Made by a program: the position numbers and the translations under genes | Part shown: positions 55,585 through 64,000 of the stretch, piece by piece | Layout: each line of letters begins with the position of its first letter | Position numbering within the stretch: position 1 is the stretch's first letter | The notes under the pieces: model-generated | What the model saw: only the letters and a program-made list of their open reading frames with translations | Told to the model about the DNA's origin: nothing | Databases searched by the model: none | NCBI RefSeq assembly: GCF_900143535.1 | Contig: NZ_FRFA01000008.1 | Span: 62,001-126,000, forward strand | Reading direction: 5' to 3' | Source: Tateyamaria sp. Alg231-49 | GTDB lineage: Bacteria; Pseudomonadota; Alphaproteobacteria; Rhodobacterales; Rhodobacteraceae | DNA length: 64,000 bases

Positions 55585-55674
55585 GGAGAGGTGCCGGAGT
55601 GGTCGAACGGGGCGGTCTCGAAAACCGTTGTGGGTGCAAGCCCACCCAGGGTTCGAATCCCTGTCTCTCCGCCA
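55585..55674 (+). tRNA. tRNA-Ser(CGA)
   Basis: The 90-base class II tRNA has acceptor arms GGAGAGG... and ...CTCTCC, discriminator G and an encoded CCA. The anticodon stem-loop GCGGT-CTCGAAA-ACCGT exposes CGA, which reads UCG serine codons. The long variable arm (TTGTGGGTGCAAGCCCACCC) and T-arm GGTTCGAATCC are clear. Accessory genes begin immediately downstream, so it may be an integration site, though no repeat of its 3' end was found. Confidence 0.96.
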
Positions 55675-55870
55675 GCATCACTTGTAAATAATTGAATTTG
55701 TTTACAAAAAGCGCGACCGTGTTTTTCGTTGCCACATCTTACCTGCCATCAGCGGAGTGATACGTCGAATTGCACGTTGAAACACGTAGCCACTCATTCC
55801 GCCCCAAGGCTCGTCAAGTTGGATCTGTCCCAGAAACACATTTTTAACCAATACCTGAAACGTTTCTATC

Positions 55871-56053
55871 ATGCAGGTTTTCAAAATCGTCGTTCGCCCT
55901 GATCCGGATAGGCCTGATTTGCGCCAAGGCTGGGTGAGCGCGCAGTCAGAGGGGGCCGCGCTAAGGCTACTCAATCTTCCAAATGCGATCGTTTCACCTA
56001 GGCACGCCCTATGGCCGGGGCCTCCACAAGCAAAGGTATACTGGTCGAATTGA
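55871..56053 (+). CDS. Small hypothetical protein (mobile-element type)
   Basis: The 60-residue protein begins MQVFKIVVRPDPDRPDLRQG and ends LWPGPPQAKVYWSN, compact and aromatic/proline rich. It resembles small orphan proteins of alphaproteobacterial plasmids and phages. No ribosome-binding site is evident. It lies between tRNA-Ser and the HNH endonuclease and is the first probable gene of the accessory stretch. A longer minus-strand frame across the same bases has an unlikely composition and is rejected. Confidence 0.5.
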   Translation: MQVFKIVVRPDPDRPDLRQGWVSAQSEGAALRLLNLPNAIVSPRHALWPGPPQAKVYWSN

Positions 56054-56140
56054 GCTTCCAACTCTGTTAAACAGCGTGGAGCGAAACGCTTGGACTTCTT
56101 TCCTCTATGAGCAATCAACTACTGCTTGTATGCTGACAGG

Positions 56141-57148
56141 ATGTCTAAGCAGTTCCTATCCCATGAAGATTTCGCGCCCAGAGACTTGGAGCATCATGAA
56201 GTTGCACGAATATTGGGCAATTTCTCTACCGCCGAGTTCGCAGCGAAGTATGCTCAAATGTATCCTGAACGGGCGCCCGGCTCGGTTTTGCCCGGCGACT
56301 ATGCCTACAACAACAGGCAGCAGGCTCGGAACAACTATCCTTCCTTCTTGGAGGTAATAGGAAGGGCGAGTTACCGCTTCGTTGGTCTATCAGCTGGACA
56401 GGCACAAAAGCATGGTAAAAATCCCGATTGGACCCGCGACGAGCTTATCCTCGCGACTGAGTTCTACAAGACGCACGCTCCCAAGATACCGGGGAAAACC
56501 GATGCTCGGTTGATCGCTTTGGCAGACGACATTAGGGCCGTTGCTCATGGTCGCGGTCTCTACGGCGATGAAACGTTCAGAAACCCGAACGGCTGCTACA
56601 TGAAGTTGATGGAGCTGAGGAAGTACGACCCAGCTTACGCAGGTAAGGGGCTCGGAAGGAAATTGCGACCTCTGGAGCAAGGTGTTTGGGATCTACCTGA
56701 AGACAGTCTTTTGGCCGCTGCTAAACATATACGAGAGGCTCTTAAATTTCTGGAGGAAAGCAGAGATTTAGGCGGACTGATGGTGGAGTACGACGAGCCG
56801 GAAGTAGCAGATGCAGTCGAGGGAGCCATCGTTACCCGGATACATCGAACGCGGGAACGCGATCCTAAGATCGTCCGTGACAAGAAAAAACAGTTCTTGG
56901 CCCAGCATGGCAGCCTCTACTGTCAAGCCTGCGGTTTTGACTTTGCAAAACGATACGGCCCGCGCGGCGAGGGGTTTATCGAGTGCCACCACACAGTGCC
57001 GGTGTCCGAAATGGGAATCGGCGCGAAGACCAAGCTTGCCGACCTGATGCTAGTTTGTTCAAACTGTCATAGGATGATACACGCTAAGCGCCCATGGCTT
57101 TCGCCCGACGCAATCAAAGGCCTGCTAACTGGCAACCAGTATTCCTAA
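56141..57148 (+). CDS. HNH endonuclease (McrA-like)
   Basis: The 335-residue protein has a C-terminal zinc-stabilised HNH nuclease: CQAC (C261, C264), the catalytic ECHH at 281-284, then CSNCH and the final RMIH. Upstream are an N-terminal domain (residues 1-80) and a middle domain WTRDELILATEFYKTH as in type IV (methyl-dependent) or orphan HNH restriction enzymes. ATG 56141 follows GACAGG. It is alone with no methyltransferase gene next to it, which suits a type IV or solitary defence nuclease. The target base modification is unknown. Confidence 0.8.
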   Translation: MSKQFLSHEDFAPRDLEHHEVARILGNFSTAEFAAKYAQMYPERAPGSVLPGDYAYNNRQQARNNYPSFLEVIGRASYRFVGLSAGQAQKHGKNPDWTRDELILATEFYKTHAPKIPGKTDARLIALADDIRAVAHGRGLYGDETFRNPNGCYMKLMELRKYDPAYAGKGLGRKLRPLEQGVWDLPEDSLLAAAKHIREALKFLEESRDLGGLMVEYDEPEVADAVEGAIVTRIHRTRERDPKIVRDKKKQFLAQHGSLYCQACGFDFAKRYGPRGEGFIECHHTVPVSEMGIGAKTKLADLMLVCSNCHRMIHAKRPWLSPDAIKGLLTGNQYS

Positions 57149-57363
57149 GAGCTTTTGACCAGCGTCGTAAGAAGACTTATCGCGTGTCGATATTCGCGGT
57201 AGTAACTCGCGAGAGCCGCCAACTATGTTCCTGCAGGGTCGCTTGACCGGAGCCAGCCCGAAGCGGACTTTGATAAATACTTTTTCTTGCTCCGTTTTCG
57301 CCTTCAGCTCACTCGTCTATGTTGTTTCATTCAGATTGGCTACAAACGAAAGCCCTCACTTAA

Positions 57364-58410
57364 ATGCATCCCGACATTCAGAGATATTATTCAGACGTAA
57401 GACGAGTTGCTTTCTCGAAACCGATTCCGCATGTGAGCGCACAATGCCCTGATACAATTTCTTTCTATTTGGCGACCAAGGATTTGGTTCTAGAAAGCGG
57501 CTGGCACTGGCTTGGATATCTATACAACTTGCCATGGGCCGACGCTAACATTTGGAGGTTCGCAAACCTGTGCGTTCGGGCCGAGCGACGTTTGCCGGGT
57601 TTGGGCATCCGCTACATTAATGAACTCGCGCACTTAGGTGGACCTGAACGCGACGAACCCCGTTATGAGCAGATGTTACAGTTATTTGCCGAAGTGTTCG
57701 CGATCGATAGGGTTTTGGTGATGCCTTGGGGTGACGAAGCACAGTTTTACTTCGAGCCACGAGGCGAAAATGGACTTCGTCCCGAGTTCAGGGTTGTCGA
57801 CAAAGACGACGCTTACAATTTTGAAGTTAAGTCGCCAAGCCTACTGGCCCACCAGCGGCTAAGGGCAGCAGCTAGCGTTCAACTACCTGTGCGTATCACA
57901 AAGGAGTTCACTACTTCCGTGCAAATGAAAAACCCGGGCGCTCTGTTGCCACGAGACAATCCTATAAAGGATTTTTTGGTCAGTGCAGATGCAAAGTTTT
58001 CCGGATTTCCCAGAAACTCGGGCGCAAATATTCTGGTCATTGTATGGGATGATTTTATTTACGAACCTATCGGCAGTCTGTTGTCAGACTTTGCTGGCCT
58101 ACTGACGAACAATTCATTTCATAGATTAGGCGGGGAAGCAGTTATTTTTGAGAATGTTGATGCTGTCATTTGTGTGCGTCACATGAATGTTTTTCAGGAG
58201 GCGTTAGCCGAGCGTCCGTTGCCAGATGATAGGACTGACATGTTCGATCTAAGCCACAACCCTTTCACTCCTAACGTTTTCATTCCAACGCCTTGGGGCA
58301 ATGCATGCCCCCAATTTATACTCGAAAGCTTTGGTGCGCTCATGCATAATGACAAGCGCCTCCAAACCATTGCTGAATATAGGATCCCTGAGTACATTTT
58401 TTACGTGTAG
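57364..58410 (+). CDS. Unrecognised protein with PD-(D/E)XK-like motif
   Basis: The 348-residue protein has no signal peptide or membrane segment. Residues 140-142 (PEF) and 154-156 (EVK), 13 residues apart and framed by beta-like strands (LRPEFRVV, NFEVKSPS), fit a PD-(D/E)XK nuclease active site with Glu in place of Asp. The N-terminal half is helical and Trp/Tyr/Leu rich. Visibly more AT-rich than its housekeeping neighbours. It follows the HNH gene by 215 bases on the same strand. I do not recognise a family; the nuclease assignment is an inference from the motif alone. Confidence 0.5.
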   Translation: MHPDIQRYYSDVRRVAFSKPIPHVSAQCPDTISFYLATKDLVLESGWHWLGYLYNLPWADANIWRFANLCVRAERRLPGLGIRYINELAHLGGPERDEPRYEQMLQLFAEVFAIDRVLVMPWGDEAQFYFEPRGENGLRPEFRVVDKDDAYNFEVKSPSLLAHQRLRAAASVQLPVRITKEFTTSVQMKNPGALLPRDNPIKDFLVSADAKFSGFPRNSGANILVIVWDDFIYEPIGSLLSDFAGLLTNNSFHRLGGEAVIFENVDAVICVRHMNVFQEALAERPLPDDRTDMFDLSHNPFTPNVFIPTPWGNACPQFILESFGALMHNDKRLQTIAEYRIPEYIFYV

Positions 58411-58848
58411 TCTTTGCCCCAAGTTCATCAAATCCGCTTGTCTGCTCTGGGCCAATCACGCAACTTTGCAAAGGTCACTATCTGCGCATGGCCGCCGCTC
58501 ATTCGACACCTCCAGACGCAATCTGCGCCTATTCTAGGTGTCCACCAAATCAGAGCAAAACCAGTCAGCCCAAAGCGGTCATAGCGCGAAACGGCGGAGT
58601 TGGTCAGAGCGGACCTTCGCGATGCTTCTGTTGAGTGACCGATGTGCGGGACAAAGCCGCCTTATGCGGGTGCAGCGGATTTCACTTCAATACATCAGAC
58701 CTGAAGGAGGAGTTCATGCTTTCAAAGGGAGACCCAAGTAGATAGTTTTTGAGAACTGAGTGCGAAACGCCGTATGATTGAGCTATTGGGACAACCCCGA
58801 TAGCAGCAGCAATAAGGCGGAGGCTAATAGTTCTCTACTGGAACCCAC
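58411..58848. other. Intergenic region with repeat copy and a stray ribosome-binding site
   Basis: No real gene is seen. It holds one copy of a 39-base repeat (58462-58500). At 58716 an ATG preceded by a perfect AAGGAGGAG ribosome-binding site opens a frame of only nine codons (MLSKGDPSR, TAG at 58743), which looks like the truncated 5' end of a lost gene. It separates the PD-(D/E)XK-like gene from the convergent DUF3604 gene. Confidence 0.45.
58462..58500 (+). repeat. 39-base dispersed repeat, copy 1
   Basis: AACTTTGCAAAGGTCACTAT and the following TCTGCGCATGGCCGCCGCTC match 61851-61889 at 33 of 39 positions with no gap, in the same orientation. It may be a remnant of a degenerate intergenic repeat family. 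Confidence 0.55.
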
Positions 58849-60774
58849 TCACTCCGCAGTGTACCAGATCGGCGAAGTATATGCCCGATCCTGAATTTCT
58901 GGCGGCACGCTGTCTGGCAACGGAATATCATAGAAAGCTGCATCGTATGTCGTCCAACGCGGTTTTGGGATTTCTATAACACGCACATAGTAAAATGCAT
59001 TTTGGGACGGATCGAACTCGGGGTCCTGCCAGTAGGCTTCCAGCCCGGCTGCGCCAATCGAATTGTTAAATGTCGCGTTTTCGATATCGACAGTCGATCC
59101 GACGGGCTGTCGCGCACGGCCATCTTCGCCAATCTCGCGACCATCGGAAACAGCCACATCATAGATACGTTCAAAAGTTTTCCCGGTGTCGTCGATCCAT
59201 CCCTTGATGATCTGAACGCGATCCAGATTGGCCCCGTCCGGATCGCGCAGAGCATGGATCAGGAAGCGGGGTGCGGCTCCTTCAGGCGCGTTGATCAGAT
59301 CACTGCCCATCGGAACACCGTTCTGGTATCCGTTGGAAACAAAGTCAGGTGCGCGTAAATCAGTCTCTTTGAATTGCCAGCCGCCAAACACCCGAACTCT
59401 TATCCGGCTACCGGTCGTTGCATAGGCTTCTTTGCGGGAAATGGCGCCGTACACTTCGTCGCGCGTGTTTTCCCTTGCCCAGACCGCGGTCAGACCTGAC
59501 GCGGATTCCTGCGCTGTCAATATCCGAAGCGCGGGGTTTTCGGCTGGGATTACTTCCCTGTTGTGCCGGGTCGCGGAGGGTTCCGTGTGTTGGTACTTCC
59601 CAAAGTAATTGTCTTCACGCGTTGTCGGAAGTGCCGTATGCGAGTCCGTCGTGCCATAAAGCCCAAATTTGTAGGGGTTTACGCCGATATCACGCTCGAT
59701 CTCCAGCCCGACCTTCATCGCGGAACGCGTGTATTCGTATTTCAACATCTCGGGCGTCTTTGCGGATGTCCCCCCAAGGTTGGACACATCCCAGCGCTCA
59801 AAGCCAGCAAACTCGTCATCCGGCGACAACATCGGATGAGTTTCCTCGTCCCCTTTGATCTGGGTTACTTCATGCATTGGCTCCCAACGAATGCGCTTGG
59901 CCGCATATTCGGCATCCATAGGCGACCCATCGAACTTGTTCTTGTTGAACATCAAGCCGTTCGACATATTCCCGTTGTGAGGTACAGCAATGGCATTTCC
60001 GCCGATGGTCGTTTCATAGTCTGCAAGATAATCCCACAGCATTTCGGGGTCCGGGGCTTCGAAGAAGGATAAAGGTCTGGTCTGACTGGTTTTGTCCGCG
60101 CCATCCCCGAAGATGATAACCCGATGCAGGTTGTCGCCTTTGGGGGTGAAGGTCCATTCAAACCCGCTCAACGCGGTAAAAGTGCCGGGATCGTTGTACT
60201 GATCCACAGTTTCCACAATATCGAGCCAGATGTCGCCATCCAACCCCAGCCCTCCGGTCGGGTCGATGCCCCGTACCGTCGCCATTTCAATAATTTCCGC
60301 AAAGGCGGCCATCCGGGCTTCCTGCCCTTCGGTAAATCCGTCGTGAATGCGGCGGCCCCAATCATCTGCTAACAGGTTTGGATGCGACGTGCGAATTGCA
60401 GTTGCCAGCCCGAGCATCTCTGCATGTTCCGTGATGGCAAGGAAATCTAACGGGCGAATGAGTTGAACCGGTTGCCCTGTATTTGAAGTTATTCTTTCGC
60501 CACGGGCCACCCGAAAAGCATCATGGATGTTCAGGGAGGTGCCAATCAGACCGGCATCAAAAGATATTTCTGTGTGAAAATGCAAGTCGCCAAAAAGCAC
60601 CTGATCCGGATAAGACCGCCCGACAAATGGAGAGTAGTTCGGCTCAGTTTCGACAGTCTCGGTTGAAACTACGCCCTCGAAAGCTGCGGCATCCAACGCC
60701 AAAGACGACATCAAAGCAGCGCTCAGACATAACGTAACGAGCGATGTCCGATCCAGAAACCACGAGTATTTCAT
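58849..60774 (-). CDS. Secreted DUF3604 (PHP-like) protein
   Basis: The 641-residue DUF3604 protein is exported by a signal peptide (MKYSWFLDRTSLVTLCLSAA... cleaved near DAAA-FEG). Candidate metal ligands lie in LFGDLHFHTEISFDAG, DFLAITEHAEMLG, IAVPHNGNMSNG and GLYGTTDSHTALP. TGGAGGGGA before the ATG supports 60774. It is clearly a different subfamily from the cytoplasmic DUF3604 protein at 600-2909. Divergent from a Crp/Fnr regulator that probably controls it. A metal-dependent hydrolase of the periplasm is likely, with unknown substrate. Confidence 0.88.
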   Translation of the reverse strand: MKYSWFLDRTSLVTLCLSAALMSSLALDAAAFEGVVSTETVETEPNYSPFVGRSYPDQVLFGDLHFHTEISFDAGLIGTSLNIHDAFRVARGERITSNTGQPVQLIRPLDFLAITEHAEMLGLATAIRTSHPNLLADDWGRRIHDGFTEGQEARMAAFAEIIEMATVRGIDPTGGLGLDGDIWLDIVETVDQYNDPGTFTALSGFEWTFTPKGDNLHRVIIFGDGADKTSQTRPLSFFEAPDPEMLWDYLADYETTIGGNAIAVPHNGNMSNGLMFNKNKFDGSPMDAEYAAKRIRWEPMHEVTQIKGDEETHPMLSPDDEFAGFERWDVSNLGGTSAKTPEMLKYEYTRSAMKVGLEIERDIGVNPYKFGLYGTTDSHTALPTTREDNYFGKYQHTEPSATRHNREVIPAENPALRILTAQESASGLTAVWARENTRDEVYGAISRKEAYATTGSRIRVRVFGGWQFKETDLRAPDFVSNGYQNGVPMGSDLINAPEGAAPRFLIHALRDPDGANLDRVQIIKGWIDDTGKTFERIYDVAVSDGREIGEDGRARQPVGSTVDIENATFNNSIGAAGLEAYWQDPEFDPSQNAFYYVRVIEIPKPRWTTYDAAFYDIPLPDSVPPEIQDRAYTSPIWYTAE

Positions 60775-60802
60775 AACATCCCCTCCAAAACGCGGACACA
60801 AC

Positions 60803-60816
60803 TTGATCCACCTCAA
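60803..60816. promoter_or_regulatory. FNR/Crp-type half-palindrome box
   Basis: TTGATCCACCTCAA matches the FNR-box TTGAT-N4-ATCAA with one mismatch (CTCAA). It is 29 bases upstream of the DUF3604 start codon, where a bound Crp/Fnr-type protein would overlap the promoter. Confidence 0.5.
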
Positions 60817-60843
60817 AGTCTGTCACAATCCAATCTGAAAGAA

Positions 60844-60859
60844 ATGATCCTCAGATCAT
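60844..60859. promoter_or_regulatory. Perfect 16-base palindrome, likely Crp/Fnr operator
   Basis: ATGATCCTCAGATCAT is a perfect inverted repeat (ATGATC, 4-base spacer, GATCAT) of the TGATC-N4-GATCA type, 40 bases before the Crp/Fnr regulator's ATG and 70 before the DUF3604 gene. Its position fits autoregulation. Confidence 0.6.
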
Positions 60860-60898
60860 ATCCCATGCATTTCTCAAATAATTCGGTTATTTTACGGT

Positions 60899-61633
60899 AT
60901 GAATGAAGCTCAAAGAACTGACGCTGCTTCAGCCAGCACGCGAAAACTGACATCAAAACAAAAGAAAATGATGTGTCGCTCCGGCTGGTTGTCGACGTGC
61001 CCTAAAGCATTTCAAGACGCACTTTTGAACTTAGGCACGGTGAACCTGTTGCAACCCGGCGATGTCCTATATCACCGCGGTAAAGTTCCAACACATGTGC
61101 ACGGATTGATCGGTGGACAGATAGACATGCGTCTGTTGTCACAGCAAAATGAAGAACTCGTGTATCCCGCTACCGGTTCTGACAAATGGTACAGTTTCGC
61201 GGACGTGATTGCCCAGGAAAAAGCCGTGGGTGAGGCAGTCGCGCATAGGCCGACGCTGATGCTGAGCATTCCTCGTTCAGAGATCATGGCCTTTCTTGAT
61301 GCAGAGCCGGACAGATATCACCGGATCATCTCTCATGATAACGCATTACGTAGGCACCTTCAGGAAATCATGACAGATCTGGTTACATTCGACGGTGCCG
61401 AACTAGTTGCGCGGCGTTTGCTGTGGATGCTGAACTCCGGTCGTATTGATCCGCGATACCCTTTTATTTTGTCACAGCATGATTTGGCCTCATCTATGGG
61501 CGTGTCTGTTCCAACGGTCCAGCGTGCCTTTCGACAACTAAAATCCGAAGAAATTGTGACTACAGAATACGGAAAGTTTTTTGTGAAAGATCGCGACAGG
61601 CTTAAGGCATTTCTGGACAATACCCCCAAATAA
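60899..61633 (+). CDS. Crp/Fnr-family transcriptional regulator
   Basis: The 244-residue regulator has an N-terminal cyclic-nucleotide-binding-like beta-barrel (QPGDVLYHRGKVPTHVHGLIGG), a dimer helix, and a C-terminal winged helix-turn-helix (ILSQHDLASSMGVSVPTVQRAFRQLKSEEIV). Cys26 and Cys34 are the only N-terminal cysteines, so it lacks an Fe-S FNR signature. The ligand is unknown. It is divergent from the secreted DUF3604 gene with palindromic boxes in between, which suggests it regulates itself and that gene. No strong ribosome-binding site is visible. Confidence 0.88.
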   Translation: MNEAQRTDAASASTRKLTSKQKKMMCRSGWLSTCPKAFQDALLNLGTVNLLQPGDVLYHRGKVPTHVHGLIGGQIDMRLLSQQNEELVYPATGSDKWYSFADVIAQEKAVGEAVAHRPTLMLSIPRSEIMAFLDAEPDRYHRIISHDNALRRHLQEIMTDLVTFDGAELVARRLLWMLNSGRIDPRYPFILSQHDLASSMGVSVPTVQRAFRQLKSEEIVTTEYGKFFVKDRDRLKAFLDNTPK

Positions 61634-61962
61634 ACCTGTCATAGGGCGACGTGTATTACGGCAAAATCACTGGAAAAGACGTATTGACTGGACGCCTCTG
61701 CATTGCTGTCACCTGCGCAGAATTTCGTTCCGGATATGTTGAGGACAACATGCTGCGGTTGCAAAATCGGAATTTTTCCATGTCTCCTTCGGGCTCTCAA
61801 CCGACCTTCGCTGCACTCAGTTTGAAGGTCCGCTGTCGGGAAACTGCCCAAACTTTGCAAAGCTCGCTTTCTGCGCATAACTGCCGCTCAAACGGCTCGG
61901 CTAAGTCAAAGTTCTTGACGAAAACTGTCAGATGGCGGTCGCTCAACAGATGCATCGCGAGC
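61634..61962. other. Intergenic region, no gene seen
   Basis: This 329-base stretch lies between the convergent Crp/Fnr regulator and the DUF5677 gene. It contains the second copy of the 39-base repeat (61851-61889). A plus-strand open frame from 61651 runs antisense through the DUF5677 gene and is not credible. Confidence 0.45.
61851..61889 (+). repeat. 39-base dispersed repeat, copy 2
   Basis: AACTTTGCAAAGCTCGCTTT and the following CTGCGCATAACTGCCGCTC match 58462-58500 at 33 of 39 positions, same orientation. It lies downstream of the Crp/Fnr gene. Confidence 0.55.
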
Positions 61963-62676
61963 CTAGTCAGATTTATCCCGAACAAAATGATCCGAAAGTC
62001 CCGTTTCAAAGATTTCATGGATAGTTTCAGACGCATGGTGGATTGCTACAGCACACGTGTCTATCAAGGTTGGAAAACTATCTTCTGCGTCCCTTTGAAA
62101 GCTGACCATTTTGAAGTCGTCATCGCCATCAAAATGAAAATGGCGATTTCTAAGCGTTTGAAGATTGTTGTGACCGCTATTGCAAAGCTGCGCATACACC
62201 GTTCGATACTCTTTCTCCCATCCTAACGCCTTGTGTTTTTGGAACATGTTCTTGCTGACGGCACCTTGGTTTTTCAATTGATCAACCTCAGTTTGCTTAG
62301 CCATCCGAACTCCATCAAAATCTTCAATTTCACTAAGACCTTTTACAAAGGGGTTTCCTTCACTGCTCTGATTAAAGAGCTTTAACCAATATTGATGATG
62401 CTCAAGTTCTATAGCTCTGATGTGCTGACGGTCCTTTTTTAAGAGCGCGAGATCGACCCAAGCCTCGTACATAGTACGAAGCAATGGATATGCCATTTGT
62501 CCTCTGCCAGCTTTTACCAGCATCAAGACTGTATCGCCGACTTCCAAAACTGTCAGGTAAAGCGCAACCGTAGTTGTTTGGTACATGTCTCTTGAATTCA
62601 GTTTTAAGTGCTGAGTTTCTGGAAGGCATTTTTCGTGGATTAAGGCCACCAATTCATCAGCCGTTTCAAGTTTCAT
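61963..62676 (-). CDS. DUF5677-family protein
   Basis: The 237-residue all-helical protein has the DUF5677-like core PLLRTMYEAWVDLALLKKDRQH and later HFHFDGDDDF. An Asp/His-rich middle (NSGHNNLQTLRNRHFH) recalls HEPN-like helical RNA-cleaving domains but no strict R-x4-6-H motif could be confirmed. GAGAGGG precedes ATG 62676. It is less GC-rich than the core genome. It lies 67 bases downstream of the Mom-like/zinc-ribbon pair on the same strand. Function is unknown; defence is a speculation. Confidence 0.7.
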   Translation of the reverse strand: MKLETADELVALIHEKCLPETQHLKLNSRDMYQTTTVALYLTVLEVGDTVLMLVKAGRGQMAYPLLRTMYEAWVDLALLKKDRQHIRAIELEHHQYWLKLFNQSSEGNPFVKGLSEIEDFDGVRMAKQTEVDQLKNQGAVSKNMFQKHKALGWEKEYRTVYAQLCNSGHNNLQTLRNRHFHFDGDDDFKMVSFQRDAEDSFPTLIDTCAVAIHHASETIHEIFETGLSDHFVRDKSD

Positions 62677-62743
62677 CCTAAACCCTCTCGCATAAGGTTA
62701 AGTGCTACAGGCAATGCCAATCCGGTTTCGTCGCAGCATCTGT

Positions 62744-62893
62744 TTATTTTTTTTGCTGTCGTGATGCACGCTTTCGGTATGCATCGCCGCAGTATTTAGG
62801 CGTCGTGTTGTATACATTGATCTTTTCGCCGCACATCTGACAACGCAACGGCACAGCAACTAGCCGAGTAATTGACGCCAACGACCGTATCAC
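62744..62893 (-). CDS. 49-residue zinc-ribbon-like protein coupled to Mom-like gene
   Basis: GTG 62893 overlaps the TGA stop of the Mom-like gene (GTGA), giving MIRSLASITRLVAVPLRCQM, CGEKINVYNTTPKYCGDAYR and KRASRQQKK. C18-x2-C21-x13-C35 has the same spacing as the N-terminal zinc ribbon of the Mom-like protein (C15, C18, C32, C36), but the fourth ligand position is Tyr39. Positively charged C-terminus. Too short to be noticed by length alone; coupling and cysteine spacing support it. It may bind nucleic acid or be a duplicated, decaying piece of the ribbon. Confidence 0.55.
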   Translation of the reverse strand: MIRSLASITRLVAVPLRCQMCGEKINVYNTTPKYCGDAYRKRASRQQKK

Positions 62894-63669
62894 AGGCCCA
62901 ACAGCTTCGCCCGGCTCCGTCTATACGTCTTCGATCCGGCCAGTTTGACGAAACGACGCTTGCGCGGACGATCAATCAAACGCAGTCGATCGCCATACTT
63001 TGCGCGCAGCTGCTCATATCGATCTGGCTGGCCGCGAAACTCGCCCAAAATGGAGAACGAATGCCGGGTCTGCCTGCGTATTCGATATTCGCGTCTTCGC
63101 GCTGACCAACCCAACGGAATAAAAGACGCAGCGTGATAGATGCCGCCCCGGTGGCCTTGCCGGGGATCTGCAAACGTCACGCATGTGAAATCGCCAACGA
63201 TCGAACGCATCAGTTTCAGCGATCTTGAGATCAAACGCGTCGCGTCGTTTGGTCGATTGCTTCGAAGGACGAGGCGGTTCAATTCCCAGACTTCGCCAGC
63301 GTGATCTGGGCCGAGTACTGCGTCACGGGCTGATTGCGTTGCAGGGCGCCCGTAGGTGACAACGCCTTCGAGTGTCTCACCCACAAAAAGGCCGAATATG
63401 AAACTGACGGGTGGCCAACGACGCGCATAATGGATGCGCGTGATCAGATGGTCGGCGGCTGATCTGTCGATCTGCCTGATTGTCGTCCCACCCGTCGGCG
63501 CGGGGCAATTATCTGTGACGTTCTGTCGTTTGTTCGATCGAACGCGCTTTGCACGTTGCCTACATGTCGCGCCACAGAACGTAGCGTCGACGCGTTTTCG
63601 AATGAAGGTGTTACCGCACAGGGCGCACTGCGTTTTGACAGGCTGTTTGGGGCGGTAAGTTCGGACCAT
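62890..63669 (-). CDS. Mom-like GNAT DNA-modification protein with zinc ribbon
   Basis: The 259-residue protein. Residues 1-45 form a zinc ribbon (C15-x2-C18...C32-x3-C36, followed by RQRAKRVR). Residues ~75-200 match the phage Mu Mom pattern: HYARRWPPVSFIFGLFVGETLEGVVTYGRPA, EVWELNRLVLRSNRPNDATRLISRSLKLM, and FADPRQGHRGGIYHAASFIPLG. Mom is a GNAT-like protein that modifies adenine in phage DNA to evade restriction. The basic C-terminus (RPRKRRFVKLAGSKTYRRSRAK) fits DNA contact. Found at the edge of a mobile-looking segment. The activity here is inferred from pattern only. Confidence 0.7.
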   Translation of the reverse strand: MVRTYRPKQPVKTQCALCGNTFIRKRVDATFCGATCRQRAKRVRSNKRQNVTDNCPAPTGGTTIRQIDRSAADHLITRIHYARRWPPVSFIFGLFVGETLEGVVTYGRPATQSARDAVLGPDHAGEVWELNRLVLRSNRPNDATRLISRSLKLMRSIVGDFTCVTFADPRQGHRGGIYHAASFIPLGWSARRREYRIRRQTRHSFSILGEFRGQPDRYEQLRAKYGDRLRLIDRPRKRRFVKLAGSKTYRRSRAKLLGL

Positions 63670-63709
63670 TCGTCACGAATAATTGCCCCGCTCGGCGGCG
63701 TCAACGGCG

Positions 63710-64000
63710 TCACGCAACGCCTATGAACTCAGGTCGAACACGCGAAATTTTGACCGCCCTGCGCAGATGTCGCGGCGCGGTCACGCCAGGCAATTTTGCC
63801 TTGACCAAAGCGGCGTTCATCAAATCAGACGTACGGACGTCGCTGTGTGCGATTTTCGCAGGACACGAACAACGCCAGAATTCCAAATCGGCGCTGTCGA
63901 AACGATGAACGATAATGCCAAAAAGCCACGTTTTGCCGCTCTGATCGACGTCGAACTGCATAGCGCCAAATGCAGATTTGTTAGATCCACAGATCTTTAT
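63710..64000 (-). CDS. Hypothetical protein, 5' end beyond window
   Basis: The frame stays open from the right edge to TGA at 63710, with the first readable residues IKICGSNKSAFGAMQFDVDQ and the C-terminus RVRPEFIGVA. An internal ATG at 63961 would give 83 residues. Two cysteines (WRCSCP) are present. The stop is 40 bases before the Mom-like start, same strand, so the two are probably in one operon. Family not recognised. A plus-strand frame over the same bases is less likely. Confidence 0.4.
   Translation of the reverse strand: MKICGSNKSAFGAMQFDVDQSGKTWLFGIIVHRFDSADLEFWRCSCPAKIAHSDVRTSDLMNAALVKAKLPGVTAPRHLRRAVKISRVRPEFIGVA

Follow-up and report, generated by a model that had tools for sequence, protein, structure and literature searches.

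The window, by which we mean the whole 64,000-nucleotide stretch of DNA analysed (C14:62001-126000 of a 4.5-Mb genome), carries between 62744 and 63669 two reading frames on the minus strand, a mom-like gene for a 259-residue protein and a frame of 49 residues, both at the positions that a preliminary description of this DNA had assigned to them. The overlap that it had claimed between them is there as well: mom starts with ATG, and its TGA stop (62892-62890) is overlapped by the GTG start of the 49-residue frame (62893-62891) in the string GTGA. We refer to the 259-residue protein as P0001, and to a second Mom protein with a finger, from genome G286, as P0003. The features discussed below are, in window coordinates:

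62890-63669, minus strand: mom-like gene, 259 aa, N-terminal zinc finger and Mom/GNAT domain (Pfam, PHROG, phmmer, AlphaFold)
63508-63669, minus strand: finger-coding segment of mom, residues 1-54 with C15, C18, C32 and C36 (phrog_6975, 2.2e-9; model)
62944-63483, minus strand: Mom domain, residues 63-242 (limits of the Pfam match; Foldseek to 8BV8)
62744-62893, minus strand: 49-residue frame, finger with three Cys and a Tyr (reading of the frame; phrog_6975, 4.6e-5)
63671-63691 (L002:7671-7691), no strand: inverted-repeat arm directly 5' of the mom start codon (pair unique in the genome at one mismatch or fewer)
63500-63520 (L002:7500-7520), no strand: inverted-repeat arm within mom, directly 3' of the finger-coding segment (base-pairs with the other arm in the predicted RNA)
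55661-64000, no strand, continuing to C14:135057: in-window part of E1, a 17.4-kb integrated element (14-bp direct repeats; G006 junction)
55585-55674, plus strand: tRNA-Ser(CGA), with the attachment core as its last 14 bp (55661-55674)
56126-57148, plus strand: HNH nuclease gene in E1, type IV restriction-like (PADLOC mREase_IV, 2e-6; HNH, 1.4e-9)
61963-62676, minus strand: DUF5677 gene 3' of the 49-residue frame (PF18928, 1.8e-16)

The preliminary description had taken the larger protein for a Mom-type GNAT and had suggested comparing it with profiles of Mom families. In this comparison residues 63-242 match the Pfam family Mom, PF25680, at 5.4e-29 (101.7 bits, cut-off 27.1), and the assignment is borne out by a match to PHROG_1384, 'Mom-like DNA modification protein' (5.3e-33), and by phmmer, which finds the Mom of phage Mu (PDB 8BV8) by sequence alone (5.8e-12, residues 72-256). 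The AlphaFold model of P0001, made with 58 sequences, has a mean pLDDT of 88.9, with values above 90 for the greater part of the Mom domain and of about 80 in residues 11-40. When Foldseek was run with this model, the best PDB match was again 8BV8 (E 3.3e-11), followed by ordinary GNATs, and the two structures superpose with TM-scores of 0.63-0.65 by target length and 0.52-0.55 by query length, at an rmsd of 5.4-6.2. With Mu Mom the protein shares the GNAT fold and the His-Tyr, ELNR and FAD..GH.G..Y.A motifs (both ELNRLVLR and FADPRQGHRGGIYHA are found in it); it differs in its N-terminal finger, which we read as a treble clef, in a Thr in place of Ser124 and in a His in place of the Gln of the YQA motif. 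Judged by its sequence, P0001 is a genuine but unusual member of the Mom family, with a fused N-terminal finger and in an unexpected carrier.

In a FastTree tree of 132 Mom domains, that of P0001 clusters with the viral-contig loci L099, L100, L101 and L130 (local support 0.935), a grouping that points to a phage origin for it. These nearest relatives, at 42-43% identity to P0001 for the three that were aligned, are without the finger and end in PYP at the C-terminus, and some loci outside the clade are slightly more identical (44-45% for L104 and L102, and up to 46%). Searches with single-protein patterns found no close relatives of P0001 in viral_contigs or genome_contigs, and none of P0003 in viral_contigs. 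Two further candidates, L007 and L009, gave weak matches only and were set aside as not Mom-like on reading.

The zinc ribbon that had been described as built into the N-terminus of the enzyme stands up as a zinc-binding module, through the match of residues 10-57 to phrog_6975 and through the model. Its cysteines are spaced C-x2-C-x13-C-x3-C, and in the model strands 11-14 and 21-24 flank C15/C18 while a helix (34-47) leads from C32/C36, an arrangement that differs from Com and that we read as a treble clef. A further match, to the HNH endonuclease family phrog_1271 (9.7e-6), covers residues 11-71, and the best match of the finger among PDB sequences has an E-value of 0.64. A search with an alignment of the two finger-Mom sequences returned four viral loci, all matched in the finger region only, and a finger of the same type was read in two HNH proteins and one HTH protein of viral contigs. 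Because of this company, and because of the match to an HNH family, DNA binding appears to be the likeliest role of the finger.

We looked for the same fusion in 125 Mom loci, 45 from genome_contigs and the best 80 from viral_contigs, and in a further scan of viral contigs directed at the nearest sub-clade, which gave 76 new locus ids among its best 80, at least 11 of them re-fetching contigs already among the 125; each viral scan thus describes its best 80 loci and not a frequency across all viruses. By pattern, a C4 finger fused in frame to the N-terminal side of Mom occurs in 0 of the 125 loci (best 80 for the viral part) and in 0 of the 76 further ones (again the best loci), and it is also absent from 11 other Mom proteins of annotated phages, plasmids and G140. 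The one other finger-Mom is P0003 (L008/L022), in a genome of the same family as the host. It begins, like P0001, with MVRTY.P, has the same finger, with identity at 22 of the first 42 positions, and carries Thr at the position of Ser124, but its Mom domain is divergent (27.8 bits, cut-off 27.1), with the H/Y/E/L core residues lost, and no finger frame follows it. Its surroundings, with portal-type, tape-measure-like and minor-head-type proteins, were read as a prophage. Elsewhere in the same genome, a second Mom-part copy (C1:1612512-1612985, L189) is 81% identical and has one internal stop and no finger in the match.

In the tree the Mom domain of P0003 stands apart from that of P0001, on a long branch, so that two Mom lineages seem to have acquired the finger, with long-branch error as a caveat. 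So rare a pairing does not allow a conserved function to be deduced. Among the papers listed in the literature searched, the titles and abstract openings describe no Mom that is fused to a finger or borne by a satellite, which says little since subscription papers mostly fell outside its scope; the text of PMC9122126 does not mention Mom.

The 49-residue frame repeats the spacing of the enzyme's finger exactly, with C18, C21, C35 and Tyr39 in the arrangement C-x2-C-x13-C-x3-Y, so that the preliminary description was right to give the two ribbons one cysteine spacing, with Tyr in place of the fourth ligand in the smaller. A strict finger pattern, written after the frame had been seen, fits it alone among the 487 six-frame window ORFs of 40-120 aa, and a loose one fits three of the 487. 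The frame matches the finger family phrog_6975, and blastp against the enzyme's own finger gives an E-value of 0.001 in a single comparison; against phages the best E-value is 0.3 among the best 15 of 79 records, which is uninformative. A finger ancestry is likely on these sequence matches. The codon usage of the frame (-0.174) falls below every on-frame window of the E1 genes (0.284 ± 0.137), which served both as training set and as comparison, and is typical of their off-frame windows (-0.127 ± 0.140). This test is weak here, because mom itself, unlike the other E1 genes, scores only 0.034.

From the two coupled frames it had been proposed that the locus is a rearranged or undescribed Mom/Com-like unit, with conservation of the small frame next to homologues set beforehand as the test. 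The coupling is ordinary, since 26 of the 125 other Mom loci (best 80 for the viral part) have a frame that overlaps the stop of mom; a chance listing of small window ORFs has such a stop/start overlap in 3 of 385. Loose zinc-like frames were counted upstream of mom at 3 of the 125 Mom loci and downstream at 4, against 2.5 ± 1.5 and 2.1 ± 1.4 at random places in the same loci, and at this background rate they show no association with mom. No frame with the C-x2-C-x13-C-x3 spacing was found beside the other moms of the 125 and 76 loci (the best-scoring ones for the viral part), and P0003 is without one too, so that as far as tested the small frame is not conserved. Other cysteine-rich frames next to mom have other spacings: a 94-aa frame with eight Cys at L061:3648-3932, with a 4-nt overlap with the mom stop and no PHROG match, a frame of 71 aa and six Cys from L121:3651 onward that also overlaps the mom stop, and a C2H2-like frame of 58 aa just 3' of mom in L152/L154.

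A com/mom pair is present in L006 (from G140), at 1233-1427 and 1393-2118, in what was read as a Mu-like prophage; its Mom matches 8BV8 at 7.1e-74. The likeness of our locus to this operon is a small zinc-type frame adjoining mom. There, however, Com (64 aa) is encoded upstream of mom and has the form CxxC-x15-CxxC, whereas here the frame is downstream and has the form CxxC-x13-CxxxY. The Com parallel fails on position, finger type and conservation, and the proposed unit is left without support. We rejected a Com-like regulator as the leading reading of the frame, given its downstream place, its missing zinc ligand, its non-coding-like codons and the background rate of such neighbours; by its sequence it is most likely a decaying or accessory finger. 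Small C4 zinc frames upstream of mom, in the Mu-like order, were seen in two viral contigs, one at L113:2041-2175, of CxxxC type and one frame further up from mom, and one at L228:3858-3998, which resembles Com (CxxC..CxxC).

To place the Mom domain of P0001 among its relatives residue by residue, we used 130 other homologues (11, together with 119 of the 125 loci; the remaining six were left out for frames of less than 150 aa that arose from start choice). P0001 retains H80, Y81, G102, E129, L130, R132, D168, H173, G175, Y178, A180, G187, H203 and K237. It has Thr144 where the other 130 have 126 Ser, 2 Thr and 2 Gly, Thr being present in this column in L070 and L076 and in P0003. Further departures are H179 (Gln in 125 of 130), S182 (123 Asn, 5 Ser), P185 (Tyr in 121 of 130) and the lack of the C-terminal YPK that is near-invariant in homologues. 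The title of 8BV8 reads 'inactive mutant S124A', and when its chain is aligned to the Mu-like P0006 the conserved Ser, which shares its column with T144, is matched by an Ala of the chain. From the length of the chain and that of the protein, we take this Ala to be residue 124. P0001 may, on these comparisons, be active with altered catalysis, or it may be decaying.

Decay would extend to the whole locus if it held a catalysis-dead finger-Mom and a finger fossil in an old element, which we consider unlikely, though a serious contender. The threonine at the Ser124 position, the histidine at Gln179 and the missing YPK all agree with it, as do the lost zinc ligand and non-coding-like codons of the small frame, the weak codon signal in mom, the lost core residues of P0003 and the interrupted second Mom-part copy in the G286 genome. 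Against it, the Mom frame is open over 259 codons and most core residues are retained, the integrase frame of E1 is open, and Thr keeps the hydroxyl and is found in L070 and L076 as well. Ser182, being common to P0001 and its near relatives L099 and L101, is a feature of the lineage and not a mark of decay.

The start of mom lies next to an inverted repeat with 21-nt arms, paired at 19 of 21 positions, and a 150-nt loop, which brackets the finger-coding segment. No further copies were found in the genome at one mismatch or fewer; by chance 0.16 such sites are expected in the 20-kb stretch at three mismatches or fewer, and 1 of 200 shuffles reached two, for a pattern taken from the repeat itself. 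The predicted RNA fold pairs the arms around the start of mom, with a z-score of -2.29 and 3 of 100 shuffles equally stable. The repeat could hide the start and so control translation, or it could mark the point where the finger was joined. Two other uses were rejected: a dispersed element or operator, as the genome has no copies besides the two arms at one mismatch or fewer, and an invertible segment yielding a second Mom variant, as the reversed 150-nt loop has stops in the mom frame. One other frame of the reversed loop stays open, and on/off switching by its inversion is possible.

A repeat that is unique, directly before the start codon and directly after the finger segment, and whose arms pair in the predicted fold, also fits a merger of Com and Mom in which the enzyme's finger would bind a hairpin of its own mRNA and control translation of mom in cis. 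In excerpts of PMC6483171, Com is described as binding a hairpin beside a structure that inhibits translation. The finger is, however, of another type than Com's, the loop, at 150 nt, is large, the searches gave no close relative in which the arms could be compared for covariation, and the P0003 locus has only one 12-base self-palindrome in the 400 bases searched; we regard such a merger as improbable. More doubtful still is the wider idea that the satellite Mom is regulator and enzyme in one, with the finger, as a cassette joined to two Mom lineages, reading its own hairpin so that modification would occur only when the satellite is active.

Mom lies close to the end of a gene run that takes up about 10 kb of E1, most of whose core is beyond the window. 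The recognised genes of the run are all on the minus strand (long plus-strand frames overlapping them were taken as spurious), and their order is integrase, AlpA, an AAA_25 replication protein similar to phage primase/helicases, TerS, genes without an assigned family, and mom. The TerS match is marginal in Pfam (PF05119, 2.6e-5, 25.0 bits against a cut-off of 24.7) and stands at 6.2e-5 for terS in PHROGs. This TerS is the only PF05119 protein of the genome, in which no PF03354 TerL was found; it has no relatives in viral_contigs and reaches only an E-value of 0.01 in phages, where u231 found no relatives either. Between rep and terS lie four 31-nt repeats (D1, 65-100% alike, L002:12405-13040), possibly iterons of a replication origin. 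A scan for promoters and terminators gave one site each, both on the plus strand and at shuffle level.

The last 14 bp of tRNA-Ser(CGA) recur at C14:135044 and 144426, and E1 spans C14:117661-135057, or 17,383 bp core to core. In G006, of the same genus, the tRNA-Ser core runs directly into the sequence of E1's right-hand flank, at 87% identity, and E1 is thus absent from that site. The other 10 of 11 same-genus loci have no E1 DNA beyond 25 nt past the tRNA, within the roughly 1.5 kb compared; the flanks of G009, which matched in two separate parts, were not included. Behind E1, in tandem and likewise at this tRNA-Ser, comes a second stretch (C14:135044-144439, from L002:17044) that encodes a tyrosine integrase of its own (DUF6538/Phage_integrase), and G006 has DNA similar to it directly at the tRNA.

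Counterparts of part of the run are found in G217, where terS-u250-u92-u231-u212 stand in the same order; they are 25-43% identical to those of E1 and have close by a tRNA-Cys and a frame that partly matches an integrase. The rep, AlpA and integrase of E1 have no detectable counterpart there and u135 is placed differently; mom is absent from the block, which fits mom as variable cargo. The left part of E1 holds the HNH gene (56126-57148) followed by a 348-aa protein without a Pfam match, near the left end, and two genes that are odd cargo for a satellite, one for a DUF3604 protein (58849-60816, E 1.7e-229) and one for a Crp-type regulator (60899-61633).

For phage-inducible chromosomal islands (PICIs), excerpts of PMC6092414 list a conserved order of integrase, replication module and transcriptional regulator, the absence of structural and lytic phage genes, a typical size of 12-15 kb, an att site never used by prophages, and induction and packaging by a helper phage. 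E1 agrees with the first of these through int, AlpA and the AAA_25/primase-helicase-like gene, and no structural or lytic phage genes were found in it by Pfam (23 frames) or PHROGs (14 frames), TerS aside. At 17,383 bp it is larger than 12-15 kb. Its att site is also used by the second integrase-bearing stretch, which may or may not be a prophage. With the Gram-negative PICIs, as these excerpts present them, it shares the integrase, AlpA, a replication gene, TerS, the lack of recognised structural genes and a tRNA site; it differs in its size of 17.4 kb and in its Mom cargo. A PICI-like satellite carrying Mom appears to be the best label for E1, and a prophage remnant is the alternative.

Least probable of all is a modification-restriction pair in which the HNH nuclease of the same island, with its mREase_IV similarity, would attack unmodified competitors while Mom protects the island, since some 5.7 kb and four other genes separate the two, which are encoded on opposite strands, and since the nuclease looks like a modification-dependent enzyme, whose substrate would be modified DNA; for the same distance and orientation it is a weaker case than jumbo phages, where fusions of Mom to nucleases, as a restriction pair, are frequent (PMC7824862, excerpts).

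The reading we prefer, to which we give an even chance, is that P0001 is a Mom adenine modifier with a fused treble-clef finger, carried as end-of-run cargo by a PICI-like island, and that it protects packaged DNA. It starts from what the sequences themselves establish, namely the Mom family, the fused finger, the gene order, the ends of the island and the island-free site in a relative. On induction of the island, we infer by a helper phage, the enzyme would be made and would be active, the finger would bind and help it hold DNA, and adenines of the replicating island (and of helper-phage DNA) would be modified before packaging; the name methylcarbamoyl for the product is taken from the molecule name of 8BV8. 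Packaged DNA so modified would survive restriction in the next host. Mom protects DNA from restriction according to the abstract of PMC6483171, and the island Mom probably has an anti-restriction role. Counted against this reading are Thr144, the changed Gln179, the missing YPK, the odd codon usage of mom and the rarity of finger-Moms, as well as the marginal TerS, the lack of rep, AlpA and integrase counterparts in G217, the size of E1 and its unusual DUF3604 and Crp-type cargo; nor did a helper phage come to light.

What is new here is a Mom with a built-in finger in a satellite-like carrier; the Mom family itself is known. Mom is the classic example of DNA disguise by a phage, and the mechanism of Com is still partly open. 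With threonine at the Ser124 position, the part that this residue plays in catalysis can be tested directly, and the finger-Mom is a compact construct for asking whether the finger holds DNA or controls its own message. If E1 parasitises phages, satellites would carry a DNA disguise of their own instead of relying on that of the helper.
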